DNA of 59,454 nucleotides, taken from assembly GCA_024434165.1 (NCBI GenBank), contig QMIW01000013.1, forward strand, positions 1 to 59,454, in the 5' to 3' direction. Origin of the DNA: Chloroflexota bacterium (GTDB taxonomy: Bacteria; Chloroflexota; Anaerolineae; Anaerolineales; Villigracilaceae). Below the pieces are notes generated by a model, which saw only the letters and a list, made by a program, of their open reading frames with translations, did not search any database and was not told the DNA's origin. Numbering within the stretch: the first letter of the stretch is position 1; every line of letters starts with the position of its first letter. Made by a program: the position numbers and the translations under genes. Of the stretch, positions 21,218-34,842 are shown in pieces.

Positions 21218-21253
21218 ACAGTAATCAGTTACGTGTTACGTATTCCGCATTAC
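21198..21253. repeat. Heptad tandem repeat joining two genes (8 units)
   Basis: CAGTGAG, CAGTAAT, CAGTAAA, CAGTAAT, CAGTTAC, GTGTTAC, GTATTCC, GCATTAC. It contains the MFS stop codon and the proposed GTG start of the next gene, and encodes the first residues of its signal peptide. Confidence 0.9.
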
Positions 21254-22234
21254 GTTTTTCTGATGATGGCAGCATGGGCGCTCGCCGCCTGCCTGGGATC
21301 GCCGGATTGTTTTAGGGAGGAGGTCTTTTGCGCGGCGCTGGTGACCGACACACAGGGGCTCGACGATCACGGCATTCATGCAGATGCCTGGCTGGGGTTG
21401 CAGGAAGCGCAGGAGAACGGACTGGCAGACAGGATTGATTACATCGAGTCGGTGGATTCGCGCGACTATTTGAAGAACATCGTCTATTTTGCGGATCGCG
21501 GCTACGACGTGATTCTCACCTCCGGGATTGCCCTGGCGGATGAAACGCTTCAAAGCGCGGACCTCAAGCCTGATTCCGTTTTCGTGGGTTTGAGCCAACC
21601 CTTTGAGGAATCCCGCCCAAACCTCGTCTCCGTGACCTTCCCCGAAGACCAGATGGGCTTTGCCGCCGGTCTGCTCGCGGCACGAATCTCCAGGACGGGC
21701 ATCGTGGCGGGGATTTGCGAAACCTCCGGCATTGACTCGATGCGGCGGTATTGCGAGGGGTTTCGGGCAGGCGCGGAATACATCCCCGAAACGAACGTCG
21801 AGGTGCTGATCGCATACCGCGAGGACGGCGACAGTGAAACCCTGTTCCTGGATGACGCTTGGGGCTACGAAACCGCCTCCCTGCTCGCCAAACGCGGCGC
21901 AGACGTGATCTTTGCGGCAGGCGGGGGGACGGGTCAGGGGGCGCTGCGGGCGGCTTCAGATCTGGGCATCCTGTCCATTGGGGCAGAGCGGGACCAGGCG
22001 GCGGTTTTGGGAGAATCCGGTTCCAGCGTGGTGACCTCTTTTTATGGGGCTGCCAGGCTCGAGGTCCAGGAGGTGATGCGCTCGCTGAGGGCGGGGGGCA
22101 TGTCGGGGGCGCGGAGCGGTCAAATCCAATTTGTGCCGCTTGGGGCGGTTTTTCCTCCAAACCTGGGGATCGAGGTGGATACGGCGCTGAAAATGCTCGA
22201 AAATGGGGAAATTCTTACGAATGTCACGCCTTAA
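21233..22234 (+). CDS. BMP-family substrate-binding lipoprotein (first of two)
   Basis: 333 residues if begun at GTG 21233; ATG codons at 21263 and 21266 are alternatives. With the GTG start a full lipoprotein signal results: MLRIPHYVFLMMAAWALAAC, with Cys as lipid site. The GTG and next seven codons lie in a heptad repeat and no ribosome-binding site is visible. The mature part is a BMP/PnrA-type binding protein (LDDHGIHADAWLGLQEA, VGLSQPFEESRPNLVSVTF, GFAAGLLAARISRTG). It precedes the second binding protein and the ABC genes, so it may be an alternative receptor. Confidence 0.82.
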   Translation: MLRIPHYVFLMMAAWALAACLGSPDCFREEVFCAALVTDTQGLDDHGIHADAWLGLQEAQENGLADRIDYIESVDSRDYLKNIVYFADRGYDVILTSGIALADETLQSADLKPDSVFVGLSQPFEESRPNLVSVTFPEDQMGFAAGLLAARISRTGIVAGICETSGIDSMRRYCEGFRAGAEYIPETNVEVLIAYREDGDSETLFLDDAWGYETASLLAKRGADVIFAAGGGTGQGALRAASDLGILSIGAERDQAAVLGESGSSVVTSFYGAARLEVQEVMRSLRAGGMSGARSGQIQFVPLGAVFPPNLGIEVDTALKMLENGEILTNVTP

Positions 22235-22350
22235 TCACATTAGCATTGCGCAGGCTTGCACAAAGAGTGGAGAAGATTTATACTTGCATTGTCGTTAGGC
22301 TGTGCTGGAAAGCAGCCTTTCATTCCATCTTCTAGAGGAGAAGAAACAAC

Positions 22351-23418
22351 ATGAAGAAGCTTTACTTTTTAATGACCGCGTTGATTGTTGCGTCGTTGGT
22401 CCTCGCTGCTTGCGGCGGTGGAGGCGCAGCCGGTGGCGATGTCGTCAAAGTTGGTCAGGTGACCGACCTCGGCGGTATTGACGACAAGTCCTTCAATGCC
22501 ACTGCGTATGCCGGTATCGAGAAGGCTGTGGCTGAACTTGGCGTGGAAGGCAAATACCTGGAATCCACCCAGCAGTCCGACTATAACAAGAACATCCAGC
22601 AGTTCATTGATGAAGATACCGACCTGATCGTGACGGTCGGCTTCCTGCTCGGCGTGGATACCGCTGTGGCGGCAAAAGCCAACCCGGAAACCAAGTTCGC
22701 CATCGTGGACTACGCCTACCCCGACTGCTTCGGCACCGACTTTGTGGAAGGTCAGACCTGCGGTTCCGCAACCGAACTGCCCAACGTCCTGGGCCTCACC
22801 TTCGCCACCGATCAGGCGGCTTTCCTCGCAGGGTATGCGGCGGCTGCCACCACTCAGACCGGCAAGGTTGCCACCTTCGGCGGCATCAACATCCCGCCTG
22901 TTACGATCTTCATGAAGGGTTTTGAAGCGGGCGTGAAGTACTACAACGCCCAGAAGGGCACGAACGTGGAAGTGCTCGGCTGGAGCACCGAAGCCAACGA
23001 CGGTTCCTTCACCGGCAACTTTGAGTCTCTCGACGACGGCCGCTCCTTCGCTGAATCCTTCGTCCAGGAAGGCGCCGACATCATCATGCCTGTGGCTGGT
23101 CCTGTGGGTCTCGGTTCCGCCGCGTACTGCCAGGAGACCGGTTCCTGCAAGATCGTCGGCGTGGACACCGACTGGACCGTTTCCGCCAGCGAATACAGCG
23201 ATGTCATCCTCACCAGCGTGATGAAGAACATGAACGTCGCCGTGTTCGACACGATCAAGGCGGTTGTGGACGGTACCTTCAAGGGCGGTGTGTACGTTGG
23301 TACGCTCGCCAATGGCGGTATGGGTCTTGCCGAAGTCTCTGGTGCTTCCGATGAGCTCAAGGCTGAACTCGAAGCCATCAAGCAGGGCATCATTGACGGC
23401 TCCATCCCCGTTCAATAG
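22351..23418 (+). CDS. BMP-family nucleoside-type ABC substrate-binding lipoprotein
   Basis: 355 residues. The lipoprotein signal ends VLAAC, followed by a Gly-rich spacer. BMP-family features are VGQVTDLGGIDDKSFNATAY, a YNKNIQQFIDEDTDLIVTVGF segment, DQAAFLAGYAAAATTQTGKV and GVDTDW. BMP lipoproteins (BmpA/PnrA) bind purine and other nucleosides. GAGGAG lies before the ATG, and a strong terminator follows, so it may be expressed at higher level than the membrane genes. Confidence 0.92.
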   Translation: MKKLYFLMTALIVASLVLAACGGGGAAGGDVVKVGQVTDLGGIDDKSFNATAYAGIEKAVAELGVEGKYLESTQQSDYNKNIQQFIDEDTDLIVTVGFLLGVDTAVAAKANPETKFAIVDYAYPDCFGTDFVEGQTCGSATELPNVLGLTFATDQAAFLAGYAAAATTQTGKVATFGGINIPPVTIFMKGFEAGVKYYNAQKGTNVEVLGWSTEANDGSFTGNFESLDDGRSFAESFVQEGADIIMPVAGPVGLGSAAYCQETGSCKIVGVDTDWTVSASEYSDVILTSVMKNMNVAVFDTIKAVVDGTFKGGVYVGTLANGGMGLAEVSGASDELKAELEAIKQGIIDGSIPVQ

Positions 23419-23430
23419 TTCGTTTGAAAT

Positions 23431-23466
23431 AAAAAGCCGGGGGAGGTTTCTCCCCCGGCTTTTTTC
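23431..23466 (+). terminator. Intrinsic terminator after the binding-protein gene
   Basis: A 10-bp perfect stem GCCGGGGGAG/CTCCCCCGGC, 4-nt loop, six T's. Confidence 0.92.
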
Positions 23467-23597
23467 ATCCCATTTGCATTAGACCCCGAAGGTGTTTTCA
23501 TTCCGATGGCGATTCGGGCGCGCCTTCTCACAAGCAAAGCCGGTACGAAAAGACCTTTCGGGTTTAATGGACAATTAAAACGCACGGAGGGCATGTC

Positions 23598-25130
23598 ATG
23601 ACCAACGTTCTGGAACTGCGAGGGATCACCAAGCGCTTCCCCGGCGTGATTGCAAATGAAAAAGTGGATATCGCCTTGAGGGAGGGAAAGATTCTCGCAC
23701 TGCTGGGGGAAAATGGCGCGGGCAAAACCACGCTGATGAATATTCTTTATGGGCTGTACAAACCGGATGAAGGACAAATCTTTGTGCGCGGCAGGGAGGC
23801 GCACATTCACGGTCCGAACGACGCCATTGCGCTGGGAATCGGCATGGTGCACCAGCACTTCATGCTCGTGCCGGTGATGACCGTGACCGAGAACGTGATG
23901 CTGGGCGTCGAACCGACCCGCAACGGCATGTTCCTGGACAAGGAAAAGGTCTCCAGGCGCATCCGCGAGATTTCCGACCAGTACGGGCTGGAGGTGGACC
24001 CGAACGCCTACATCAAGGACCTGCCGGTGGGCATCCAACAGCGCGTGGAGATCATCAAGGTTTTGTACCGCCAGGCGGATATTTTGATCCTCGACGAGCC
24101 AACGGCTGTGCTGACGCCCCAGGAAGTGGAAGGGCTGTTCAAAATCATCAATACGCTCATCAAGTCGGGGAAGTCCATCATTTTCATCACGCATAAACTG
24201 AAGGAAGTGCTCGCCATTGCCGACGACATCACCGTGCTGAGGCTCGGCAAGGTGGTCGGTTCGATTGACCCGAAGGAAGCCACCACCGAAAAACTCGCCT
24301 CCATGATGGTGGGACGCGACGTCAACCTGGTGGTGGAGAAAAAGCCCGCCAAATCCGGCAAACCTGTGCTCATGGTCGAGAACCTGTTCGTCCGCGACGA
24401 ACGCCAGCACATGACCGTTCAGGGTGTTTCGTTCGAGGTGCGCGAAGGCGAAGTACTCGGCGTTGCGGGCGTGCAGGGCAACGGTCAGACCGAGCTGGTC
24501 TATGCGCTGACCGGGCTGCTGCCCCTGGAAGCCGGGACCATCCGCCTGCTCAATGAACCCATCCGGCATACCTCGCCGCGCGAAATCCTCGAACGCGGGA
24601 TGGCGCACATTCCCGAAGACCGCCAGCGTCATGGTCTGATCCTCACCTTCCCCGTCCACGATAATTTGGTGCTGTGCACCTACTACAAGGAGCCGTTCGC
24701 GCGCGGCATCTCGCTGCAGGAGAAAGCCATCTTCAGCAACGCCGGGGAACTGGTCAAGCAATACGACGTCCGCACGCCGAACATTTACGTCAACGTGGGG
24801 ACGCTCTCCGGCGGCAACCAGCAAAAGGTGATCGTCGCCCGCGAGTTCTCCCGTCCCATCAAACTGCTGATCGCCTCCCAACCGACCCGGGGGCTGGATG
24901 TCGGCTCCATCGAGTACATCCACCAGCAGATCATCAAAAAACGCGATGAAGGTACCGGGGTGCTGGTGGTCTCCTCCGAACTGGATGAGATCCTCGCCCT
25001 CTCAGACCGCATCGCCGTGATGTACAAAGGTCAGATCATGGATATCCTCGATGCCGACAAGACCAGCAAGGAAGAACTGGGTCTGCTCATGGCGGGCATT
25101 CATCCGTCTGACAACAAGAAAACGAAATAG
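23598..25130 (+). CDS. Nucleoside/sugar ABC importer ATPase (two fused ABC domains)
   Basis: 510 residues, two ABC domains in one chain as in YufO/NupA and RbsA. Domain 1 has Walker A GENGAGKTT, signature VGIQQR and Walker B ILILDEPT. Domain 2 has a degenerate Walker A (VQGNGQTE, no Lys), signature LSGGNQQK and IASQPTRGLD, where Gln replaces the catalytic Glu. Such asymmetry is normal for this family. It energises the two permeases that follow; 10 bp separate it from the next start. Confidence 0.94.
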   Translation: MTNVLELRGITKRFPGVIANEKVDIALREGKILALLGENGAGKTTLMNILYGLYKPDEGQIFVRGREAHIHGPNDAIALGIGMVHQHFMLVPVMTVTENVMLGVEPTRNGMFLDKEKVSRRIREISDQYGLEVDPNAYIKDLPVGIQQRVEIIKVLYRQADILILDEPTAVLTPQEVEGLFKIINTLIKSGKSIIFITHKLKEVLAIADDITVLRLGKVVGSIDPKEATTEKLASMMVGRDVNLVVEKKPAKSGKPVLMVENLFVRDERQHMTVQGVSFEVREGEVLGVAGVQGNGQTELVYALTGLLPLEAGTIRLLNEPIRHTSPREILERGMAHIPEDRQRHGLILTFPVHDNLVLCTYYKEPFARGISLQEKAIFSNAGELVKQYDVRTPNIYVNVGTLSGGNQQKVIVAREFSRPIKLLIASQPTRGLDVGSIEYIHQQIIKKRDEGTGVLVVSSELDEILALSDRIAVMYKGQIMDILDADKTSKEELGLLMAGIHPSDNKKTK

Positions 25131-25140
25131 GAGAAGTCCT

Positions 25141-26319
25141 GTGAGCGAAACAGCCACTCCCTCCAAACAATCCAATGGCGGACGCAGTTCCCTTGCGCAG
25201 GAACTTCTGGTGCCGGTTCTGGCGGTGGTCACCGGCTTGCTGATCGGCGCCGTCGTGATCATTGCCAGCGGCGCGAACGTATTCGATGCGTACGGCGCGC
25301 TGTTCACCGGTTCGTTCGGCAGCCCCGCACGGCTGGTCGAGGGTTTGCAGGTGTACTTCAGCACCGGCGAAACCAGGGAATTGTTGAGAGCCATTTATCC
25401 CTTTACGGAGAGCCTTGTCACCGCCACGCCGTATATCTTTGCGGGGCTTTCGGTGGCGCTCGGCTTTCGCGCCGGTCTCTTCAACATCGGCGCGGAGGGT
25501 CAGTTCTTCATCGGCGCGTTATGTTCCGCGTTCATCGGGTACAGCCTCAAGGGGCTGCCGATGATCGTCCACCTGCCGCTGGCGCTGCTGGGCGGCGCGC
25601 TGGGCGGCGCGATCTGGGGCATGATACCGGGCTACCTCAAGGCAAGGTTCGGAGCGCACGAGGTGGTCAATACCATCATGATGAACTGGATCGCCTTCCG
25701 CCTGAGCGACTGGCTGTTGAACGGACCGATGAAGGCTTCCGGCTTCCGCCCGGTGACCCCGAACGTACTCGCCAGCGCGGAACTGCCGCGCTTCTTCCCG
25801 GACCCGCTGCGCTTCAACCTCGGATTTTTCATCGCGCTCCTGGTGGCGTACCTGGTCTATTGGTTCCTGTTCAAGACCACCACCGGTTTTGAAATCCGCT
25901 CGGTGGGTGCCAACCCCGATGCCGCCAAATACGCGGGCATGAACATCGTCAAGAACCTGGTGCTGGTCATGGCGCTGGCGGGCGGACTCGCCGGCATGGC
26001 TGGTTCCGCTCAAGTTCTCGGCGTGGATCACTGGGTGGGTCAGGGATTCTCCGCCGGGTACGGGTTCGATGCGATTGCGCTGGCTCTGCTCGGCAAAAGC
26101 CACCCGTTCGGCGTCGTTCTCTCCGCGCTGCTGTTCGGCTTCCTGCGCAGCGGCGCGACCAACATGCAGTCGCGGGCGGGCATCCCGATTGACATCATCT
26201 CCATCATCCAGGGTCTGGTGATCGTGTTCATCGCCGCACCCGCCATCATCCGCTGGTTCTACCGCCTGCGCTCGATCAAAACCGAAGAGACCGTCCTCAC
26301 GCGCGGCTGGGGCAAATAG
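25141..26319 (+). CDS. ABC importer permease (YufP-like)
   Basis: 392 residues, about 9-10 membrane segments, BPD_transp_2 family. Signature regions are RAGLFNIGAEGQFFIGAL, KARFGAHEVVNTIMMNWIA and the later GANPDAAKYAGMN cytoplasmic loop that contacts the ATPase. GTG start with AGGAGA 6 nt upstream. It pairs with the next gene to form the membrane channel for a nucleoside-type substrate. Confidence 0.93.
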   Translation: MSETATPSKQSNGGRSSLAQELLVPVLAVVTGLLIGAVVIIASGANVFDAYGALFTGSFGSPARLVEGLQVYFSTGETRELLRAIYPFTESLVTATPYIFAGLSVALGFRAGLFNIGAEGQFFIGALCSAFIGYSLKGLPMIVHLPLALLGGALGGAIWGMIPGYLKARFGAHEVVNTIMMNWIAFRLSDWLLNGPMKASGFRPVTPNVLASAELPRFFPDPLRFNLGFFIALLVAYLVYWFLFKTTTGFEIRSVGANPDAAKYAGMNIVKNLVLVMALAGGLAGMAGSAQVLGVDHWVGQGFSAGYGFDAIALALLGKSHPFGVVLSALLFGFLRSGATNMQSRAGIPIDIISIIQGLVIVFIAAPAIIRWFYRLRSIKTEETVLTRGWGK

Positions 26320-26330
26320 GCGAGGTTTGA

Positions 26331-27593
26331 ATGACAACTACAAACTTGGAATTCAGCGCTGCCGCTGAAAAACGCAAACGAATCTCCTACGGTCTGACCC
26401 TGCTGGCGGCAGGCTTGTTTATCTTCTTCCTGTTCGGGCTCAACACCCAGCCGGGTGTGCAAACCACCTTCGGCTTGAATCTCGCCGGGTCGCAAGCCGT
26501 CGAAGTTCCCGATTTCGTCGTCCCGGCGCAAATCACCGTCTACCTGATGGCTGCCATGGCGGTCTTCGCGGGCGCCTTTCAGTTGGCGCGCGGCGTGCGC
26601 TCCACCGGCTGGCTGATCGGCATTCTGTCATTCACGTTTGTGGTGGCTTTCCTCACCTGGGCGGCGCAGGACAAATCCTTCAACCTGACCGGCATGTTGG
26701 GCAGTTCGCTCGTACGCGCCACGCCCATTGCGCTCGCCGCCCTGTGCGGGGTCATCAGCGAACGCTCGGCGGTCATCAACATCGGCATCGAAGGCATCAT
26801 GCTCATGTCGGCGCAGACGGCGGTGGTCACGGCAACCGTGACGGGAAGTCTGTTCATCGGCTTGGTCGCCGCCATCCTGGTCGGCGCGTTGATCGCGGCG
26901 TTTCATGCCTTCCTGGTCATCCGCTTCAAAGTGGACCAGGTCGTAAGCGGCGTCGCCATCAACATCTTTGGCACGGGGTTTACCTCCTTCATCAGTTCCC
27001 GCTTCCTGCAAAGCGCAACCGATACGCTCAACAACTCCGGCACTTTCCCCATCATCTCCATCCCCCTGCTGGCGAAGATCCCCGTGCTCGGACCGGTGTT
27101 GTTCGAAAACAACATCGTTGTCTATCTTATGATTCTGATCGTGGCGCTCATGCACATCATGCTCTTCTACACCCCCTGGGGGCTGCGCACGCGCGCGGTG
27201 GGCGAGCACCCCAAAGCGGCGGATACGCTGGGCGTCAACGTCTACCTCGTGCGGTACGTCAACGTCATCCTCGGCGGCATGATCGCCGGTCTGGGCGGCG
27301 CATATTTCACCATCGGCTCGGTGGGGCGCTTCGACGAAATCATGACCGCAGGCAAGGGCTTCATCGGTCTTGCGGCAATGATCTTCGGAAAATGGAATCC
27401 CATCGGCGCGTTTACCTCGTCCCTGATCTTCGGCTTTGCAGATTCGCTGCAGGTGAAATTGCAGATTCTGCGCGTGCCCATCCCCTCGGAATTCCTGCTC
27501 ATGGCTCCTTACATTGTGACCATGATCATCCTGACCGGCGTGGTGGGACGCGCCATCCCGCCCGCGGCAGACGGTCAACCTTACGAGAAGTGA
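26331..27593 (+). CDS. ABC importer permease (YufQ-like)
   Basis: 420 residues, about 10 membrane segments. It carries GVISERSAVINIGIEGIMLM, the ATPase-contact loop GEHPKAADTLGVN and GRFDEIMTAGKGFIGLAAM. The N-terminal extension with two extra membrane segments precedes the BPD_transp_2 core. Last gene of the importer, followed by a terminator. Confidence 0.93.
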   Translation: MTTTNLEFSAAAEKRKRISYGLTLLAAGLFIFFLFGLNTQPGVQTTFGLNLAGSQAVEVPDFVVPAQITVYLMAAMAVFAGAFQLARGVRSTGWLIGILSFTFVVAFLTWAAQDKSFNLTGMLGSSLVRATPIALAALCGVISERSAVINIGIEGIMLMSAQTAVVTATVTGSLFIGLVAAILVGALIAAFHAFLVIRFKVDQVVSGVAINIFGTGFTSFISSRFLQSATDTLNNSGTFPIISIPLLAKIPVLGPVLFENNIVVYLMILIVALMHIMLFYTPWGLRTRAVGEHPKAADTLGVNVYLVRYVNVILGGMIAGLGGAYFTIGSVGRFDEIMTAGKGFIGLAAMIFGKWNPIGAFTSSLIFGFADSLQVKLQILRVPIPSEFLLMAPYIVTMIILTGVVGRAIPPAADGQPYEK

Positions 27594-27624
27594 CCGCTTC
27601 TTTCCGACCCGCAGCCTGATTCTG

Positions 27625-27657
27625 AAAAACAGGAGTTGCAGCAACTCCTGTTTTTTT
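27625..27657 (+). terminator. Intrinsic terminator of the ABC operon
   Basis: CAGGAGTTGC and GCAACTCCTG are perfect 10-bp arms around one base, flanked by A's and seven T's. Confidence 0.88.
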
Positions 27658-27824
27658 CTTTCGATCCTCCCGCCTAACCTGCCAAATCGCTTGCCAGGCT
27701 GCAAGCCTGACCTGCAATTGACCTATACATAAGGTTTGGCGCAGACCCGGAGAAGCGCTAAGAAATGCGGGGGATAAACGCATAATCATCTTGGGGTAAA
27801 ATAATTTTGAAAGAAGGAGAAACG

Positions 27825-28943
27825 ATGAACAAAACGACCCGCCTGCTTGGTTTTTTTATCATTTTCGCAGTAATTTTGACCGCCTGCAACCTGCCGTCCG
27901 GCGACCCGGAGGATGTCAACGCCACCGCCGCCGCACAGACCCTGGAAGCGCTGCTCAGCGCCACCCCCTCGATCTCCACAACCACGCCCACCGTCCCGGC
28001 AACCATTACCCTGATTCCCTCGCCAGCGTTTACAAGCACGCCCGTCCCCACCGCCACGCCAAACTGCCCGCTGGCGCAATTCGTCACCGATGTGACCATT
28101 CCCGACGGAACCATCATGACCCCCGGGCAGACCTTTACCAAAAAATGGCGTCTGCGGAACACCAGCGCCTGCGCCTGGAACGGTTACAGCCTTGTGTTCG
28201 ACAGCGGCGATTCCATGAACGGTCCCGCCAGCAAACCGATCGGCGTCATCAACCCCGGGCAGGAGGTTGACCTGGAAGTCAACCTGACAGCCCCCAACTC
28301 CCCCGGAAACTATCGCGGGTACTGGCGCATCGTCACGAACACGAACGTGCTCGTTCCCATTGTGAACGGTTATCAGGGCAGGTCCTTCTACGTGGACATT
28401 AAAGTCCAGGCGCCGCCGACCGTGACCAATACTTCCGCGCCTTCCAGCACGACCATCACCCTCGACAACATCGCCGGGGAAAGCGGACAGGTCCGTTCCG
28501 ACGGGACAGTGCTGGGACCGCCCAACACCGGCGACATCGAATCGAACGCCGCCGCGCAGGCTTTCTTCAGTTTCAACATGAGTTCCATCCCCGCCGGCGC
28601 GACGATCACAAAGGTGGTTGTCAATTTCAGTTCGTACGATACGCTGGGCAACCCCTGGTCGCTGGCAGACGGCTGTCTGCGCGCCTACGTGCAAAACTAC
28701 GGCACGCTGGACGCCGGCGATTTCTTCCCCGGCGACCCCACCAGCGCGGTCATCCGATGGTGCGGGGCGGCTGAGTTGAGCTCCGTGTTCGAGGACAGCG
28801 GAATGAAAGCCGTGGTTCAAAGCGCGGTCGGCTCTTCGCGGCTTCAATTGAGGGTCCAATTCCGCGCGCCCACCACGAGCAGCAACGGCATTGCGGATAT
28901 GATACGGTTCGGGACCGTAAAACTCATCATCACCTATCAATAG
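27825..28943 (+). CDS. FW/NBR1-Ig-like lipoprotein 1
   Basis: 372 residues. The lipoprotein signal ends AVILTAC, then comes a Thr/Pro stalk to about residue 80. The NBR1-type Ig-like (four-tryptophan) domain spans about 82-200: TDVTIPDGTIMTPGQTF, KKWRLRNTSACAW, VINPGQEV, GYWRIV. A Cys opens the domain (NCPLAQF) and another sits in SACAW. A second, C-terminal beta-type domain of about 150 residues (TNTSAPSSTTITLDN onwards) is specific to this copy; I cannot name it. The start has AAGGAGA 6 nt upstream. First of five consecutive genes sharing the domain. Confidence 0.85.
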   Translation: MNKTTRLLGFFIIFAVILTACNLPSGDPEDVNATAAAQTLEALLSATPSISTTTPTVPATITLIPSPAFTSTPVPTATPNCPLAQFVTDVTIPDGTIMTPGQTFTKKWRLRNTSACAWNGYSLVFDSGDSMNGPASKPIGVINPGQEVDLEVNLTAPNSPGNYRGYWRIVTNTNVLVPIVNGYQGRSFYVDIKVQAPPTVTNTSAPSSTTITLDNIAGESGQVRSDGTVLGPPNTGDIESNAAAQAFFSFNMSSIPAGATITKVVVNFSSYDTLGNPWSLADGCLRAYVQNYGTLDAGDFFPGDPTSAVIRWCGAAELSSVFEDSGMKAVVQSAVGSSRLQLRVQFRAPTTSSNGIADMIRFGTVKLIITYQ

Positions 28944-29001
28944 CATTTCAGGCTGAGACGCGGATAATTGCATAAAACCCGATTTAGAAAGTGCTGAGAA
29001 C

Positions 29002-29026
29002 CGAGCGCCCGCAATCCGGGCGCTCG
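29002..29026. repeat. Perfect 10-bp stem between lipoproteins 1 and 2
   Basis: CGAGCGCCCG/CGGGCGCTCG with a 5-nt loop, followed by AAATTT. It could be a weak terminator for lipoprotein 1. A TATAAT follows at 29038-29043. Confidence 0.6.
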
Positions 29027-29037
29027 AAATTTAACAG

Positions 29038-29043
29038 TATAAT
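29038..29043 (+). promoter_or_regulatory. Candidate -10 element for lipoprotein 2
   Basis: TATAAT 26 bp upstream of the ATG; no good -35. Confidence 0.4.
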
Positions 29044-29069
29044 CATTTGCTGAAAGTGAAAGGAAAAAA

Positions 29070-30008
29070 ATGACCAAATCGAAAATATATTTGCTGTTTA
29101 CAACCATCATCGCTGCCGCCCTGCTCCTTGCCTCCTGCGGCGAAAACACGGATGCGGAGTCCGTCATCCAGACTTCCGTTGCCGAGACGGTTGCCGCACA
29201 GCCCCCCGTGGTGATCACCGAGACCCCTCCAGCCGTCACGCTCGTTCCAACTCAAACGCCCTTCGCGCAGCCCACCACCGGCACACTGCCCCCAACCCCC
29301 ACCCTCTCCACCGCCTCGAAAGCCGAGTGCGCCAAAGCCAGCCTTCAGGATGAAACCATCGTGGACGGCAAAATCTTCAAGCCCGGCGAGCAATTCACCA
29401 AGACCTGGTACATCACCAACACCAGCAACTGCGTCTGGGATACCAGTTACAAGATCATCTTCTGGGATGGCAACATCCTCGGCGGCGCCTACGTTTACAA
29501 CCTGCCGCAAATAACAGGACCCGGTCAGACCGTGCCCGTCTCGCTCGTTCTCACCGCCCCCACCCAGGACGGGACCTACCGCTCCGAATGGAAACTGCAA
29601 ACCCCCGATAACATCAATTTCGGCGTGGGCGTTTACCAAGCCGCCTTCTACACCGAGATCGTCGTCTCATCGGCAGACAAGCCCAGCTACGCCGTCACTT
29701 CGGTGGAACTGACGATTGACCGCGAACCGGATTACGGCTGCCAGCCGGCAAACATGGTCTATACCGCCTATGCCACGTTCACCACCAACGGTCCGCTGGA
29801 ATTCAAATTCCGCTGGCTCCAACAGGACGGCAACAATTCGGGCATCCAAACCGTGAAAATGACCGAAGCGGGGAAGAAAACCTTCACACGAGTCTGGAAA
29901 CTGGGGCGCGCCGCCTCGCAGAACAGCAACCGCTGGTTCCAGATCGTGGTGCTGGAGCCGGTCTACAAGGAATACCCGCAGGTCAAATTCACCTTCGAGT
30001 GCCCGTAA
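29070..30008 (+). CDS. FW/NBR1-Ig-like lipoprotein 2
   Basis: 312 residues. The lipobox is LLASC, then a Thr/Pro-rich stalk. The FW-like domain (about 85-205) has VDGKIFKPGEQFTKTWYI, NTSNCVWDTSYK, GPGQTVPV, a Trp in RSEWKL, and the opening Cys in AECAKA. The C-terminal 100 residues form another beta-rich part with a Cys pair (GCQPANM and the final FECP). Followed by its own terminator. Confidence 0.85.
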   Translation: MTKSKIYLLFTTIIAAALLLASCGENTDAESVIQTSVAETVAAQPPVVITETPPAVTLVPTQTPFAQPTTGTLPPTPTLSTASKAECAKASLQDETIVDGKIFKPGEQFTKTWYITNTSNCVWDTSYKIIFWDGNILGGAYVYNLPQITGPGQTVPVSLVLTAPTQDGTYRSEWKLQTPDNINFGVGVYQAAFYTEIVVSSADKPSYAVTSVELTIDREPDYGCQPANMVYTAYATFTTNGPLEFKFRWLQQDGNNSGIQTVKMTEAGKKTFTRVWKLGRAASQNSNRWFQIVVLEPVYKEYPQVKFTFECP

Positions 30009-30023
30009 GGCGAATTTCACGAA

Positions 30024-30050
30024 GAAGCCGGAGATTTCCGGCTTCTTTTT
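30024..30050 (+). terminator. Intrinsic terminator after lipoprotein 2
   Basis: GAAGCCGGA/TCCGGCTTC, loop GATT, then five T's. Confidence 0.9.
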
Positions 30051-30157
30051 ATTGGGAACCCGCCGCCCCCGCCCTTCGTCTTTAATACTTGAGCGACTCA
30101 CCTTGCGCGCCGCTGAATACCCTGCGTGAAAGGTGAGAAAATGAAACGGAGGAAGCC

Positions 30158-31459
30158 ATGAACAAAAAATATTCACCTTTTATCCTCGCAGTCATCGTAT
30201 TATTGACCGCCCAACTTGCCTGCAACGTTCCGTCCGATGCGGGGACGCCCGACACCTTTGCCACCCTCAACGGACTCTACACCGCCTCTGCCCTGACGCT
30301 CGAAGCGGCTGGCACGCAATCGGGTCTGACTGCCACCCCGGGCCTGCCCCTGCCAACCGTGACCATCGCGGGGTCGCCCTCAGCGACGAACCCGCCCGCG
30401 CTGCAGTCGCCAGCCCCACAGTCCAGGTGTGATGCGGCGCAGTTCCTGGCGGACGTCACCTACCCGGACGGCAGCGTCCTCCAGCGCAGTACGACCTTCG
30501 TCAAAATCTGGCGCATCAAAAATATCGGCACATGCACCTGGACCACCTCGTATGCGCTGGTCTTTGCGGGCGGCGATGCGCTGGGCGGACCGGCGGCGGT
30601 GGGCATGCCGGGCACGGTGTCTCCCGGTCAGTACATCGAAATTCCCGTTACGCTCAATTCGCCCAACAAGGACGGCAGTTACACCGGCTATTGGAAACTG
30701 CGCAACGCATCCGGCGCGATGTTTGGAATCGGCGCGCAGGCAGATACGGCGTTTTGGGTCAAGATCCGGGTGGCAGGAACCGTGCACGCTGCCTACAACT
30801 TTGCGGATAACTACTGCAAAGCGGACTGGTCGAACGGCAAATCATCCCTGCCCTGTCCCGGCTCCGACGGCGACCCGAGCGGTTACGTCATCCGCCTGAA
30901 CGCGCCGAAGATGGAGAACGGCGTAAAGGAGGACGAACCGGGTCTGCTGACCGTGCCGCAGGACAAACAAAACGGCTCCATCAGCGGAGAGTTTCCGGCG
31001 TTCACCGTGCAAGCCGGGGATCGTTTCCGCGCGCTGATTAACTGCCAGTATGAGGCGGTGAAATGCAATGTGATTTTCAAACTGGAATACAAAAACAACG
31101 GGCAGATCCGAACTCTCGCCAGTTGGGCGGAGGTCTACGAAGGCAAGTATTACCCGGTTGACCTGGACCTGAGCAGTCTCGCCGGCGAGACGGTGAAATT
31201 CATCCTGACCGTGAACGCCAACGGCGGCAACAAACACGATTATGCCATCTGGCTCAATCCGCACATCGCGCGGCAGGGCAATGCGCCCACTGCCACCGCC
31301 ACGAAACCGCCAACCAAAACCTTCACGCCGACAATCACCTTCACGCCTACATTGACGTTTACCCCCACAATCACGTTCACTCCGACCTCTACGTTCACCC
31401 CCACCGCCCCTCCAACGGCGACCAGTACCGAAACACCCATCAGCACGGCAACCCCGTAG
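30158..31459 (+). CDS. FW/NBR1-Ig-like lipoprotein 3 with C-terminal Thr/Pro repeat
   Basis: 433 residues. The lipobox is TAQLAC. The FW-like domain (about 90-205) has all four Trp positions: FVKIWRIKN, GTCTWTTSY, GYWKLRN and AFWVKIRV. The region 210-370 is a second beta-sandwich-like module with several Cys (NYCKADW, LPCPG, NCQYEAVKCN). The tail, about residues 373-433, repeats a TFTPTI-type hexapeptide several times and ends without an anchor. GGAGGA lies before the ATG. Confidence 0.85.
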   Translation: MNKKYSPFILAVIVLLTAQLACNVPSDAGTPDTFATLNGLYTASALTLEAAGTQSGLTATPGLPLPTVTIAGSPSATNPPALQSPAPQSRCDAAQFLADVTYPDGSVLQRSTTFVKIWRIKNIGTCTWTTSYALVFAGGDALGGPAAVGMPGTVSPGQYIEIPVTLNSPNKDGSYTGYWKLRNASGAMFGIGAQADTAFWVKIRVAGTVHAAYNFADNYCKADWSNGKSSLPCPGSDGDPSGYVIRLNAPKMENGVKEDEPGLLTVPQDKQNGSISGEFPAFTVQAGDRFRALINCQYEAVKCNVIFKLEYKNNGQIRTLASWAEVYEGKYYPVDLDLSSLAGETVKFILTVNANGGNKHDYAIWLNPHIARQGNAPTATATKPPTKTFTPTITFTPTLTFTPTITFTPTSTFTPTAPPTATSTETPISTATP

Positions 31460-31465
31460 GTGCGT

Positions 31466-31471
31466 TATAAT
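31466..31471 (+). promoter_or_regulatory. Candidate -10 element for lipoprotein 4
   Basis: TATAAT 30 bp upstream of the ATG, 6 bp after the previous stop codon. Confidence 0.4.
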
Positions 31472-31501
31472 AACGTTACCATTTTCGGAGGTTCAAAAAT
31501 C

Positions 31502-32245
31502 ATGAAATTTCGCAAGTCACTCTGGCTGGTGATGTTGACCCTTGCCGCTGTGGTTCTCAGTTCCTGCAACATCGGAGCCTCGCCCGCCCCCACAGAGGAC
31601 CCGGGCATCATCCAGACGCAGGCATTCGGGCTCGTCCTCACCCAGGCGGCAGACCAGCAGACGCAAACCGCCGCGGCGGCTCCGCCCACGCCCCTCCCGA
31701 CCAGAACTCGCACTCCGACCCTCTCCGTGACCATCACTGTGGGCATTCTCCCCACGACCTCGCTCCTGGGCGGCTCGCCCACACCCTTCGCCTTCAACAC
31801 CCAACAACCAGGTCTGACGCCGCAGCTGCTCGTCACACCCAGCCTGGTGGGCACGCTCGGCGCAGTGGGAACGGTTACCACGAAGAATGGATGCAACGAC
31901 GGCTACCTCGTCAGCGAATCCCAGCCGTACGACGGCAAGACCATCCTGCTCGCCACCGAATTCACCAAAAGCTGGGAGTTCATCAACACCGGCACCTGCG
32001 TTTGGGATGAAGGCTACACCTTCGCGTACGTGGAGCAGTTCTCCACCGGTCCGCGCTACGGCAAGGATTACATCATTCCGAAGGATGGTCCGTTTACAAA
32101 ACCCGGCGAATACCGCACCTTTACAGTCACGCTGAAGGCGCCCAAAGTGCCCGGCGAATACACCTGGTATTACAAACTCAAGGACGATGCCGGTAATTTC
32201 TTCGGTTCGCTGGTCTGGGTCACGATCAAGTCTGTGACAGGGTAG
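31502..32245 (+). CDS. FW/NBR1-Ig-like lipoprotein 4
   Basis: 247 residues. The signal ends VVLSSC, then a long Gln/Ala/Thr/Pro stalk to about 130. The C-terminal FW-like domain has FTKSWEFINTGTCVWDEGY, KPGEYRTFTV, a PGEYTWYYKL strand and LVWVTI; the opening Cys is in NGCNDG. The start was placed at the ATG with CGGAGG 9 nt upstream. This copy has only the one domain. Confidence 0.85.
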   Translation: MKFRKSLWLVMLTLAAVVLSSCNIGASPAPTEDPGIIQTQAFGLVLTQAADQQTQTAAAAPPTPLPTRTRTPTLSVTITVGILPTTSLLGGSPTPFAFNTQQPGLTPQLLVTPSLVGTLGAVGTVTTKNGCNDGYLVSESQPYDGKTILLATEFTKSWEFINTGTCVWDEGYTFAYVEQFSTGPRYGKDYIIPKDGPFTKPGEYRTFTVTLKAPKVPGEYTWYYKLKDDAGNFFGSLVWVTIKSVTG

Positions 32246-32259
32246 AAAGCAGGGACATC

Positions 32260-32892
32260 ATGAAAAAACTGTTCGCTCTCCTTATGCTGGCGGCGGTGCT
32301 GACCGGTTGCGCTCCCGCCACACCGGTCGAACCTACGCCGGATGTGAACGCCATTCGCACTTCGGCGGCTAACACAGTGGTGGCAGAGTTTACACTGACG
32401 GCGGCAGTTTCCACACCCACCTCCCAGCCGCCCACCGAAACGCCCACCCAGGCTGCGCCGCCCACCGAGACCCCCACCGTGGCGCTTGCCACCAACCTCA
32501 CCGAGGTGGCGCTCGGCACACCCGCCGCCATCTGCGACGATTATTCCTTCGACCTCACCACGCTGGACGTCACCATCCCGGATGGCACGCCGATGTCGCC
32601 CGGTCAGGAATTCGTGAAGACGTGGCGAATCAAAAATACAGGCATCTGCACCTGGGACACGAACTACAAAGCCATCTTCTCCTACAGTTCGCCCCCCAAC
32701 GAAGACATGGACGCCCAACCCATTCCACTGGCGGCGCTGGTCGCGCCAGGGCAGGAAGTGGAAGTCTCGGTGCAATTCAAAGCGCCCACCACTCCGGGCG
32801 AATACACCGGCTATTGGCAGATGGTGAACTCCAAGGGCATTTCCTTCGGCAAAAAAGAGTACACCCTGATCGTCAAGATTGTTGTCCAATAA
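32260..32892 (+). CDS. FW/NBR1-Ig-like lipoprotein 5
   Basis: 210 residues, the shortest of the set. The lipobox is AVLTGC, then a Thr/Pro stalk to about 90. The FW-like domain is the cleanest copy: LDVTIPDGTPMSPGQEF, VKTWRIKNTGICTW, VAPGQEVEV, TPGEYTGYWQMV, ending in VKIVVQ. The fourth Trp is replaced by Leu in this copy. Fourteen base pairs after the previous stop, so probably co-transcribed with lipoprotein 4; its end overlaps queG. Confidence 0.86.
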   Translation: MKKLFALLMLAAVLTGCAPATPVEPTPDVNAIRTSAANTVVAEFTLTAAVSTPTSQPPTETPTQAAPPTETPTVALATNLTEVALGTPAAICDDYSFDLTTLDVTIPDGTPMSPGQEFVKTWRIKNTGICTWDTNYKAIFSYSSPPNEDMDAQPIPLAALVAPGQEVEVSVQFKAPTTPGEYTGYWQMVNSKGISFGKKEYTLIVKIVVQ

Positions 32893-33931
32893 CCCAAAAC
32901 TCAAGCAAGCCATAAAAGACAAAGCGCGCCAGCTGGGATTCATCCTGGCTGGCGTTACTTCTCCCGACCCGCCCGCGCATTACAACGTCTTTGAAACATG
33001 GCTGGAACGGGGGCATCACGGCGCGATGGATTATCTTGCCAGCGAACGAAACCGCATCCGCCGCGCCGACCCCAGGCAGATTCTCCCCGAATGCCAATCC
33101 ATCCTCGTGCTGGCGCTGCCGTATTCGCCCCATTCTGAATTCAAAATTCAAAATTCAGAACCCAGAATCGCCGCCTATGCCCTCGGCGGCGACTACCACG
33201 AAGTCATCGCGCCGCGCCTGCGGCAAATCGTCCAATTCGTCGAAGAACAAGCCGGGCATCCCGTCCCAAACCGCTATTACACCGACACCGGTCCCATTCT
33301 CGAACGCGAACTCGCGCAGCGAGCCGGCCTTGGCTGGGTCGGCAGGAATTCCATGCTCATCAACCCCAGGGCAGGCTCGACCTTCCTGCTTGCGGAGATC
33401 CTGCTCGGCATCGAACTCGAACCCGACGACCCCTTCCCCACCGACCACTGCGGAACCTGCACGCGCTGTCTCGACGCCTGCCCCACGCACTGCATCCTGC
33501 CAGACCGCACGCTCGACGCCCGCCGCTGCATCTCCTACCTCACCATCGAAAACAAGGGCGAAATCCCCGAAGATTTGCGCGAGCCGGTGGGCGGCTGGGC
33601 GTTTGGATGCGACATCTGCCAGCAGGTCTGCCCGTGGAATCGTTTCTCCCCGCCGGCGGACCCCGCCCTCGAGCCGTCCATTCCGCTTCCAATCCCGACC
33701 GACGACCTGCTCTTGTTATCCTCCGAGTTCAACCAACGCTTCAAGCGTTCGCCCGTCAAACGCGCAAAACGGCGCGGCTATTTGCGGAATCTCGCCGTCG
33801 CAGTTGGAAACACGGGAACCGAAAAAGATTTGCCTGTTTTAGAGCAAGCCGCACAGGACGAAGAGCCCCTGGTGCGGGAGCATGCGAAGTGGGCGATGGA
33901 TAAACTCATTCGCAGGTCGGGTTTACAGTAA
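32879..33931 (+). CDS. queG: Epoxyqueuosine reductase
   Basis: 350 residues. It performs the last step of queuosine tRNA modification using cobalamin and two [4Fe-4S] clusters. Cluster ligands are in CGTCTRCLDACPTHC (about 192-206) and CDICQQVCPWN (about 244-254); the catalytic region is YYTDTGPILEREL, and HEAT-like helices form the C-terminus. The start is TTG (32879 or 32882), overlapping the preceding gene by up to 14 bp, because the N-terminal domain requires it. Residues about 87-98 (EFKIQNSEPRIA) are encoded by a heptad repeat. Confidence 0.93.
   Translation: MLSNNPKLKQAIKDKARQLGFILAGVTSPDPPAHYNVFETWLERGHHGAMDYLASERNRIRRADPRQILPECQSILVLALPYSPHSEFKIQNSEPRIAAYALGGDYHEVIAPRLRQIVQFVEEQAGHPVPNRYYTDTGPILERELAQRAGLGWVGRNSMLINPRAGSTFLLAEILLGIELEPDDPFPTDHCGTCTRCLDACPTHCILPDRTLDARRCISYLTIENKGEIPEDLREPVGGWAFGCDICQQVCPWNRFSPPADPALEPSIPLPIPTDDLLLLSSEFNQRFKRSPVKRAKRRGYLRNLAVAVGNTGTEKDLPVLEQAAQDEEPLVREHAKWAMDKLIRRSGLQ
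33137..33171. repeat. Heptad tandem repeat inside queG (5 units)
   Basis: GAATTCA, AAATTCA, AAATTCA, GAACCCA, GAATCGC. In frame, a surface-loop insertion before the conserved AAYALGGDYH segment. Confidence 0.9.
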
Positions 33932-33998
33932 CGCGGAATTCATTCCGCAAATTCAATGCGATATAAATATCGAATTACAGACTCACCTTACGCAGTGA

Positions 33999-34039
33999 AC
34001 CGCCAAGTTTTTTATATCTTTTACTCTTCCCTTGGCGGT
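33999..34039. repeat. ACCGCCAAG/CTTGGCGGT inverted repeat (class C), copy 1
   Basis: Perfect 9-bp arms around a 23-nt T-rich loop, followed by seven A's. The arms recur in modified form inside a glycosyltransferase gene at 44603-44677. Confidence 0.75.
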
Positions 34040-34056
34040 AAAAAAAGGCGGCTCTT

Positions 34057-34183
34057 CCGTTCCTGGCGGGAAAACCCTTACCACGAACGGTCACAAAGGC
34101 ACACAAAGGATGTTTTTTTGGCTTTTTCCCTTTGTGCCCCTTTGTCTCCCGGGCAGTTGAAAAAAGATTCCCGTTAAAAACGG
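34057..34183. repeat. 127-bp inverted-terminal element, copy 2 (class B)
   Basis: Opposite orientation to 9674-9799, with the same 16-bp imperfect terminal inverted repeats and the same CACAAAGG-rich interior. Confidence 0.8.
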
Positions 34184-34242
34184 TGGAACCAAAAAGGCTT
34201 GACTGCGTAACATCAGTTACAGAATCTTTGGAAGACAAATTC

Positions 34243-34842
34243 ATGAATAAACTTCTCATTGCCACCAACAACAACGGAAAAATACTCGAACTCCAGGATT
34301 TGCTCAAAGACAGCGGCATCGAACTGGTTACGCCGGAGCAAATCAACCTTGAACTGGAAGTGGAGGAAGACGGCTCGACCTACGCCGAGAACGCCGGCAG
34401 GAAAGCCATCGCCTTCGCCCAAGCCAGCGGATTGATCTCCCTCGCCGACGACTCCGGTCTCGAAGTGGATGCGCTCGATGGCGCGCCGGGTCTGTACTCT
34501 GCGCGATACTCCCCCAAGCCTGGCGCAAAGGATGCCGACCGCCGCGCCCTCCTCCTGCAAAACCTCCAGGGCAAGCCGCGCCCGTGGAAGGCGCACTTCC
34601 ACGCCACGATTGCAATTGCCTCATCATTGGAGGAGGTCCAGTTTGCGGAGGGGAACTGCTTCGGCGAGATCATCCCCGAAGAACGCGGCACGGGCGGGTT
34701 TGGCTACGATCCGATATTCTTCATCCCCGAATTGGGCAAGACCATGGCAGAGTTGGATATGGACGAGAAGAATCGTCTCAGCCACCGCGCAAGGGCGGTG
34801 ATGAACGCCATGCCGATTCTGAAAAAGTTGTTTGGGTACTAG
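34243..34842 (+). CDS. rdgB: RdgB/HAM1 non-canonical purine NTP pyrophosphatase
   Basis: 199 residues, typical length. It hydrolyses dITP, XTP and ITP to monophosphates, keeping deaminated purines out of nucleic acids. Motifs are LLIATNNNGKILELQ, LADDSGLEVDALDGAPGLYSAR, GTGGFGYDPIF and the C-terminal LSHRARAV. The start at MNKLL is chosen by family length; the longer frame reads back into a repeat element. Confidence 0.95.
   Translation: MNKLLIATNNNGKILELQDLLKDSGIELVTPEQINLELEVEEDGSTYAENAGRKAIAFAQASGLISLADDSGLEVDALDGAPGLYSARYSPKPGAKDADRRALLLQNLQGKPRPWKAHFHATIAIASSLEEVQFAEGNCFGEIIPEERGTGGFGYDPIFFIPELGKTMAELDMDEKNRLSHRARAVMNAMPILKKLFGY

Follow-up and report, generated by a model that had tools for sequence, protein, structure and literature searches.

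Five adjacent predicted lipoproteins with FW-domain bases, some with variable tips, form a conserved array in Anaerolineae-type bacteria

The DNA analyzed here is a 59,454-nucleotide stretch from a Chloroflexota bacterium of the order Anaerolineales (contig QMIW01000013.1 of assembly GCA_024434165.1, forward strand), referred to below as the window. Within it, five adjacent open reading frames (ORFs), designated fw1–fw5, occupy positions 27825–32892 and encode proteins that share an FW (N_BRCA1_IG) domain. All five lie on the + strand and are thus co-directional, as the original prediction from this sequence had described; their start codons were picked among several possible starts. The products are predicted lipoproteins, as judged from a lipobox Cys that follows an N-terminal hydrophobic stretch. 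In all five, the signal peptide is succeeded by a short Ala/Thr-rich region and then by a Thr/Pro-rich stalk; the stalk had been expected in every copy and was read in each. Just past the lipobox, all five slots of the array also carry a helix-like Ala/Thr-rich motif (about T-A-A-x-T-V-x-A) with several invariant alignment columns.

fw1 (27825–28943) has the lipobox LTAC, an FW domain delimited by profile match (28095–28349), and an exchangeable, DNRLRE-like head (28413–28940) that rests on a weak NCBIfam match below the cut-off. In fw2 (29070–30008; lipobox LASC), the FW domain (29355–29633) is joined to an Ig/Fn3-like head (29670–30005). fw3 (30158–31459; non-canonical QLAC) joins its FW domain (30458–30772) to a head with a CBM51-like jelly-roll fold (30776–31309) and ends in a Thr/Pro-rich tail; the heads of fw2 and fw3 were assigned from models and fold comparison. 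fw4 (31502–32245; LSSC) has the longest tether, and its FW domain (31931–32230), which is hypervariable across genomes, forms the C-terminal end of the protein, as does the FW domain (32572–32886) of fw5 (32260–32892; LTGC). The added C-terminal modules that were said to differ between copies are present in fw1, fw2, and fw3; fw4 and fw5 have none. The motif series proposed for all five domains holds with several departures: fw2 has VDG for PDG, fw3 lacks the PG after PDG, and fw4 has YDG, PGE, and no W in YxxxW.

A search with the PF16158 profile, the point on which the original prediction chiefly depended, yielded 81.4, 72.8, 80.1, 64.8, and 88.8 bits for fw1–fw5, all above the cut-off of 28. 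The fold points in the same direction. AlphaFold models of fw3 (59-row alignment, mean pLDDT 90.6) and fw2 (53 rows, 93.7) contain Ig-like FW domains that superpose on 6vhi, 4ole, and 7vqo. The fw3 domain matches the FW domain of ILRUN with Z 17.1 and a root-mean-square deviation (rmsd) of 1.4 over 108, and that of human NBR1 with Z 15.3; the corresponding Z values for fw2 are 16.2 and 15.5. These comparisons were made with VIA-align lists, in which absence of a family is uninformative. Profile scans revealed 16 FW matches in the host genome in total and a match in 62 of 201 sampled genomes of the phylum, 50 of them over the cut-off, compared with none in 14 control genomes. The FW domain of fw5 had no match in phage records; among plasmid records, five matched with 32–40% identity, two of which belong to Chloroflexota, and annotated plasmids carry an "NBR1-Ig-like domain-containing protein". 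The host genome also encodes a larger protein related to fw3 (L110; G000:C66, 931–3126, − strand), in which FW and CBM51-like domains alternate in the order FW-CBM51-like-FW-CBM51-like.

Related loci were collected by scanning genome contigs with the fw3 alignment and retaining the best 80 of 410 confirmed stretches, to which 17 loci were added from relatives with FW matches, clustered in most of them. Removal of eight duplicates left 89 loci, among which one pair with common sequence (L073/L075) remained. The titles of the 80 scan loci are mostly Anaerolineales, Anaerolineae, Anaerolineaceae, Anaerolinea, and Chloroflexi or Chloroflexota bacteria, with a few others such as Brevefilum, Herpetosiphon, and Chloroflexus. 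The genes in these loci were assigned to slots 1–5, corresponding to fw1–fw5. The survey of gene order that had been proposed revealed that all five slots are kept in 54 of the 89 loci and that 49 have the exact order fw1-fw2-fw3-fw4-fw5. The recurrence of five slots in one order across so many loci argues that the array is more than a chance arrangement. Most of the remaining loci reach a contig end, contain a split array, have a slot too many or too few, or consist of fw3-type genes that are not part of an array; an fw3-type gene stands alone in 13 of the 88 loci tallied. On a tree of 100 FW domains without their heads and stalks, one change suffices for each slot.

A lipobox Cys, sought 45–135 residues before the FW domain, was missing there in 8 of 334 proteins. 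The strict lipobox pattern fits 58/66, 62/68, 16/75, 61/63, and 59/62 proteins of slots 1–5, respectively. The claim of a lipobox in each protein stands in canonical form for fw1, fw2, fw4, and fw5; the QLAC of fw3 is odd at position −3 yet kept, occurring in 38 of the 74 fw3-type proteins that have a lipobox-like Cys. The Pfam lipoprotein motif LPAM_1 was matched by fw5 only, below its cut-off. We define the tether as the distance from the lipobox Cys to the start of the FW match. Its median is 69, 71, 73, 105, and 81 residues in slots 1–5 (n = 63, 66, 74, 62, and 61 proteins), with interquartile ranges of 67–73, 69–74, 72–76.75, 103–106, and 80–82 residues, that is, widths of 6, 5, 4.75, 3, and 2. 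The Thr/Pro-rich tail past the fw3 head is looser (interquartile range 31–44, range 0–163 residues). Because tether length is nearly constant within a slot and differs between slots, we infer that each slot has a length requirement.

Two Cys occur in all five copies, one just before the FW domain and the other in the CxW motif, as had been observed. Alignments of slots 1, 3, 4, and 5 and a 53-row alignment of slot 2 (A7) show both as invariant columns; in a 12-row slot-2 alignment (A3) the first Cys is off by one column in some rows. Both are present in 323 of 326 distinct slot-labeled FW domains, the exceptions being a row with masking immediately upstream, a copy that is truncated (L050), and an fw3-type gene not located in an array (L020). 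Other FW domains (n = 88, some of which end at contig ends) have both Cys in 54 cases, neither in 24, the first only in 10, and the second only in none (Fisher p 5.6e-14, with rows not independent by descent). This co-occurrence lends indirect support to the proposal that a disulfide stabilizes the FW base. In four of the ten first-only domains (L094, L108 twice, and L109), a Cys lies near the domain end instead, as if the bond had moved; two FW repeats of one protein (L118 and L127) have an earlier second Cys (NCGTSAW for ..CxW), a possible bond shift. As for the tryptophans, W672 and W682 (numbered as in CtNbr1) are W in nearly all slot-labeled FW domains, slot 4 having 51 W and 12 F at W672. 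The position of CtNbr1 W763 is W in 59 of 75 fw3 domains; in the other slots, residues other than W, often Y or F, predominate.

The heads were compared with known folds and families. That of fw3 resembles CBM51 chains with Z 13.2–14.3 over 133–146 residues at 10–16% identity (best match Z 14.3, rmsd 2.5 over 134), and it has no Pfam match, CBM51 included, at E up to 1. Other jelly-rolls follow closely, including the meprin MAM domain (Z 12.2) and Eph receptor domains (about 10–11), so the fold leaves the ligand unfixed. The fw2 head resembles a domain of RbmA (Z 9.7, rmsd 3.1 over 100 residues, 8% identity), a modest likeness in fold only that reflects a common Ig/Fn3-like arrangement. Against the DNRLRE family (NCBIfam NF033679), the fw1 head scores 15.7 bits, below the 34-bit cut-off; six of seven scanned relatives score 17.1–30.4 bits, also below it, and the seventh gives none. 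Carbohydrate-binding (CBM51) and matrix-scaffold (RbmA) folds borne on Thr/Pro-rich stalks are what one would expect of generic surface adhesins, in which the FW domain would be a rigid Ig-like spacer without a ligand of its own and the heads alone would bind matrix, glycans, or neighboring cells.

Slot-1 proteins carry one of three dissimilar types of head on a constant FW base. Among 66 proteins, excluding uncertain-slot proteins and near-copies, 36 have Ig-like heads, 16 DNRLRE-like heads, 11 CBM51-like heads, and 3 no head; with these proteins included and before L012 and L075 were dropped, the numbers are 37, 17, 12, and 5 of 71. The head label requires 17 changes on the fw3 tree (59 loci) and 19 on a tree of the slot-1 stalk and FW domain (64 rows). 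The well-supported branches of the fw3 tree alone force at least 10 changes for Ig, 8 for the DNRLRE-like label, and 4 for CBM. When labels were shuffled on that tree, 0 of 500 shuffles were as low for CBM and 15 of 500 for Ig, which indicates that both labels are clustered. A sister pair, L041 and L044, illustrates the exchange: their stalks are 84% identical, their FW domains 93%, and their heads 28%, and DNA identity falls from about 80% to 15–36% at the FW/head junction before rising again at fw2.

Comparison of 139 locus pairs from 52 loci, with 75–99.5% identity between their fw3 FW domains, extended this analysis to the other slots. Identity is below 50% in 65% of the pairs for the fw1 head, in 49% for the fw2 head, and in 48% for the FW domain of fw4. 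The corresponding value is 1% for the FW domain of fw1 and 0% for the FW domains of fw2, fw3, and fw5, for the fw3 head, and for the flanking genes queG (84 pairs) and rdgB (81 pairs). These identities indicate that slots 1, 2, and 4 have variable tips and that slots 3 and 5 do not. On an fw3 tree, with identity clusters of fewer than three members left out, those of the fw4 FW domain need 10 changes (6 clusters, 48 rows) and those of the fw2 head 13 (7 clusters, 43 rows). The exchange of slot-1 heads would suit adhesins; that nothing follows the FW domain in fw4 and fw5, and that the FW domain of fw4 itself diversifies, are difficult to reconcile with a mere spacer.

Two local sources of new heads were considered and set aside. 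Intragenomic conversion from fw2 or fw3 would involve repeated copying, against which the head trees speak: a single branch (support 86) separates the Ig heads of slot 1 from the heads of slots 2 and 3, and another (support 100) does the same for the CBM-like heads of slot 1. Exchange between slot-1 alleles of different lineages is therefore more likely. A phase-variation switch fed by silent head cassettes was rejected as well; the DNRLRE-like head of fw1 occurs once in the host genome, where its single match is to itself, and positions 27600–30100 contain no long repeats, which again favors exchange between lineages. A weak CBM-head-like stretch lies elsewhere in the host genome (G000:C122, 25.1 bits).

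Repeated replacement of slot-1 heads between constant flanks, together with the hypervariable fw2 head and fw4 FW domain, could also mean that the tips serve recognition in conflicts, as phage receptors or kin-recognition tips whose exchange is driven by phages or competitors. Reading of the ORFs by the array, made without a search for defense or phage families, recognized no toxin, immunity, or phage gene; the FW domain of fw5 had no match in phage records, as noted above; and exchange by itself does not single out a selective force. We regard this explanation as quite improbable.

An indication of what the base itself may do came from FW proteins elsewhere in the phylum. Outside the window's order, 27 FW-positive genomes (1 of the same class and 26 of the same phylum) supplied 30 loci of about 3.3 kb each, 22 of which were scanned with Pfam as sets of 20 and 2. 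In the set of 20, wall-hydrolase domains were found in 14 FW proteins, 12 of them above the Pfam cut-off: Amidase_3 in 4, Peptidase_M23 in 2, SLT in 6 (two below the cut-off), CHAP in 1, and SpoIID, which we take to be wall-active, in 1. The 14 proteins fall in eight family-level groups and thus are not all independent of one another. The remaining six have RCC1 plus lipase, an alpha/beta hydrolase, a Ser/Thr kinase, sub-cut-off fn3, Ig, or cupredoxin matches, or no further domain. In the set of two, L154 combines M23 with SH3, and L153 has TPR and PD40 repeats. Eight FW proteins of the host genome or other relatives yielded no wall-hydrolase domain in the Pfam scan. One of the eight, from the host genome (L106; G000:C81, 2029–3069, − strand), has a CAP domain, and in L143 a Ser/Thr protein kinase domain precedes the FW domain.

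As a control, proteins with CARDB domains were taken from the same genome list. Of 20 loci, 2 repeated proteins that had been counted before and were removed, and 0 of the remaining 18 had a wall-hydrolase domain. L167 showed SH3_3 below the cut-off, and two of the 18 had no family at all, possibly because of a wrong reading frame. FW and CARDB proteins alike were clipped at locus ends. The difference between 14/20 and 0/18 is a further point against a spacer without ligand.

We next consider the pocket through which an FW domain could bind. Passages of a cryo-EM report on fungal Nbr1 (PMC9233695) describe an FW pocket that holds the N-terminal di-glycine of the cargo Ams1, with the free amino group of the cargo near D654 and D658. 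According to the same passages, replacement of F651, D654, D658, or W763 by alanine abolishes binding, and D654E relaxes the second position (PMC9233695). Across the slots, the D658 site is D in all 333 slot-labeled FW domains that have a residue there, and the D654 site is D or E in 331 of 333, E being typical of slot 2 (60/67). Slots 1, 3, and 5 have an aromatic residue at site 651, apart from a single exception each in slots 3 and 5, and site 763 is aromatic in all slot-1 and slot-3 domains. The wall-hydrolase-linked FW domains that were compared (14 domains of 12 proteins, without L141, L142, and L145) have D658 and D/E654 without exception. The conserved pocket acids, like the hydrolase fusions, do not fit the adhesin explanation, which we consider somewhat unlikely.

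We tentatively favor, at a little less than an even chance, a model in which fw1–fw5 are membrane-tethered lipoproteins docked in the cell wall, with FW bases that possibly bind free peptide amines and with heads exchanged by recombination. A lipidated Cys would anchor each protein in the cytoplasmic membrane, and the Ala/Thr-rich stretch and Thr/Pro-rich tether would set a slot-specific distance from it. The FW base, stabilized by its putative disulfide, would sit in or on the wall, where its acidic pocket may grip a free amino end that belongs either to wall peptides or to a secreted partner protein. A further head (DNRLRE-like, Ig/Fn3-like, or CBM51-like) would project outward in slots 1–3, with glycans or other surface molecules as its possible ligands. 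Recombination between relatives would exchange or diversify the heads of slots 1 and 2 as well as the slot-4 FW domain, which is the tip there, resulting in a variable set of tips on constant bases. Passages of one source (PMC13319060) consider Chloroflexota monoderm, some with multilayered envelopes, and describe a peptidoglycan layer in one member; such descriptions suit lipoproteins that cross the wall. The observations of the original prediction are confirmed in the main, and its interpretation is supported in part: that fw1–fw5 are surface-displayed binding proteins is plausible. It did not foresee the fixed tether lengths, the exchange of slot-1 heads, or the link between FW domains and wall hydrolases.

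A number of points weigh against wall docking and head exchange as we have drawn them. With regard to the wall, fw1–fw5 have no Pfam match to a wall-hydrolase domain. Hydrolase-linked FW domains mostly lack the two Cys, so they may not work exactly like those of the array, and at site 763 they have W in 9 of 14 and T in 5 of 14. The CARDB control is loose and unmatched, its matches lying in 9 of the 27 genomes. With regard to the pocket, slot 4 is mixed at site 651, slot 2 has L there in 56 of 68 rows, site 763 is variable and often non-aromatic in slots 4 and 5, and both sites are unremarkable in slots 2, 4, and 5, ranking 33–80 of about 100 columns in conservation. D658 and W672 are among the 15 best-conserved columns in every group and may be conserved for folding rather than ligand binding; for this reason, an Nbr1-like amine pocket in the array FW domains is suggestive only.

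With regard to exchange, the DNRLRE-like label shows no more clustering than random reassignment of labels gives (207 of 500 shuffles as low), which fits fast turnover and would equally fit mis-assembly. The host genome contains an Ig-head-like stretch without an FW domain (G000:C26, 37.2 bits), and a donor of Ig heads, for example this stretch, may lie inside that genome. The 139 locus pairs were picked by fw3 similarity and are not independent. Head types are nearly uniform in slot 2, where 67 of 68 are Ig, and in slot 3, where 74 of 75 are CBM-like, a uniformity that is partly circular because slot names came from full-length BLAST. The trees are quick LG+G4 builds, and on the FW-domain tree the slot groups fw1–fw5 have support of 72, 0, 10, 53, and 88. 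Synteny counts are conditional because loci were chosen through fw3 or visible FW clusters.

Finally, the constant neighbors of the array, a nucleoside transporter, queG, and rdgB, are unaccounted for by wall docking. In the window, genes of a Bmp-type nucleoside ABC transporter lie upstream (21233–27593, + strand) and queG-like and rdgB-like genes downstream (32879–34842, + strand, starts uncertain); the names are putative and come from reading the sequences. Among 47 five-slot loci with 2.5 kb or more of flanking sequence, 40 have transporter genes upstream and 40 have queG downstream; seven complete arrays lack the former and seven lack the latter, L039 belonging to both groups of seven, so the array survives loss of either flank. 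The transporter genes occur in the order abc-perm-perm in 19 loci and perm-perm-abc in 17, with permease matches only in four more; two orders at one place suggest that the transporter genes were replaced as a cassette next to an array that remained. Two genomes have the array divided between fw2 and fw3, with fw1-fw2 beside the transporter (L021, L022) and fw3-fw4-fw5 beside queG-rdgB (L019, L015).

The 40/47 linkage, the two transporter orders at one place, and the persistence of fw1-fw2 beside the transporter in split arrays would be expected if the lipoproteins were accessories of that transporter, gathering or holding nucleosides or nucleic acids for import. The seven complete arrays without a window-like transporter gene count against such a role, as do the terminator-like hairpin between transporter and array in the window and the lack of any transporter domain in the scanned FW proteins of other orders. 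The wider block (more upstream genes, rdgB, a hydrolase gene, and a kinase gene) is often syntenic too, so the linkage may be inertia. An accessory role is, in our estimate, improbable to about the same degree as recognition in conflicts.

The hairpin in question has a T-run and lies in the gap between the upstream permease gene and fw1 (27624–27656, + strand; −18.5 kcal/mol, z −5.0). A second terminator-like hairpin with a T-run lies 3' of fw2 (30021–30048, + strand; −19.5 kcal/mol, z −3.9), and a G+C-rich hairpin without a T-run lies 3' of fw1 (29002–29026, + strand; −21.6 kcal/mol, z −4.8). Because of the two terminator-like hairpins, a single operon for all five genes was rejected as the default. 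The split between fw2 and fw3 fits the hairpin 3' of fw2 together with the short fw4-fw5 spacing (median 24.5 nucleotides; at most 60 in 56 of 58). A simple scan counted 14 terminator-like sites versus 10.0 expected (standard deviation 3.0) and 3 promoter-like sites versus 2.6; its terminator list does not include the hairpins near fw1 and fw2. Elsewhere in the window, from about 37500 to 58000 and mostly on the − strand, a long run of genes resembles membrane glycosyltransferases and related functions, again with putative names.

Beyond the wall-docked array that we favor, a broader scenario would make the FW domain originally a module of the bacterial envelope that takes hold of wall peptides by their free amino ends, such as the end of a stem peptide freed by an amidase. 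The cargo pocket of NBR1 would reuse that pocket, and in Anaerolineales the module would have become the constant foot of a five-member lipoprotein array with strain-exchanged tips. We consider this scenario distinctly unlikely.

Our findings have several implications. Bacterial FW domains, which are poorly understood, gain a testable cell-wall role linked to the dipeptide pocket of Nbr1. The array represents a conserved surface system with fixed bases, tether lengths, and gene order, on which recombination appears to turn over the tips. It also makes the surface biology of these bacteria, most of which are represented here by metagenome assemblies, accessible to experiment. FW lipoprotein arrays, their head exchange, and bacterial FW-hydrolase fusions appeared in none of the titles and abstract openings of the open-licence literature searched, which does not prove their absence.

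Among known systems, the FW domains of NBR1 and ILRUN share with the array a profile match (PF16158, all five proteins), the Ig-like fold of the fw2 and fw3 models, and the acidic pocket residues. Unlike NBR1 and ILRUN, the array proteins are predicted extracellular lipoproteins with two conserved Cys, they are encoded in a five-gene array, and no autophagy-receptor domain was matched: fw1–fw5 have no Pfam match to PB1, ZZ, or UBA at E up to 1. FW domains have been described in bacteria, including chloroflexi, since 2012, according to passages of Marchbank et al. (PMC3357945) and of a review (PMC9582228). Section 3.1 of the former covers XRE-FW regulators, tandem-FW proteins, and transmembrane FW proteins, and does not include lipoprotein arrays, heads, or wall-hydrolase fusions (PMC3357945). 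The XRE-FW regulators have a helix-turn-helix, whereas fw1–fw5 have no Pfam match to one before the FW domain, and their N termini read as signal peptides with a lipobox. The fw3 head is like CBM51 in fold and unlike it in sequence, and the fw2 head is like RbmA, a biofilm scaffold of Vibrio cholerae, in fold only. Modular tip exchange, in which a distal module is swapped on a constant base, is known for surface proteins and for phage tail fibers; here, it takes place within one slot of a chromosomal lipoprotein array.

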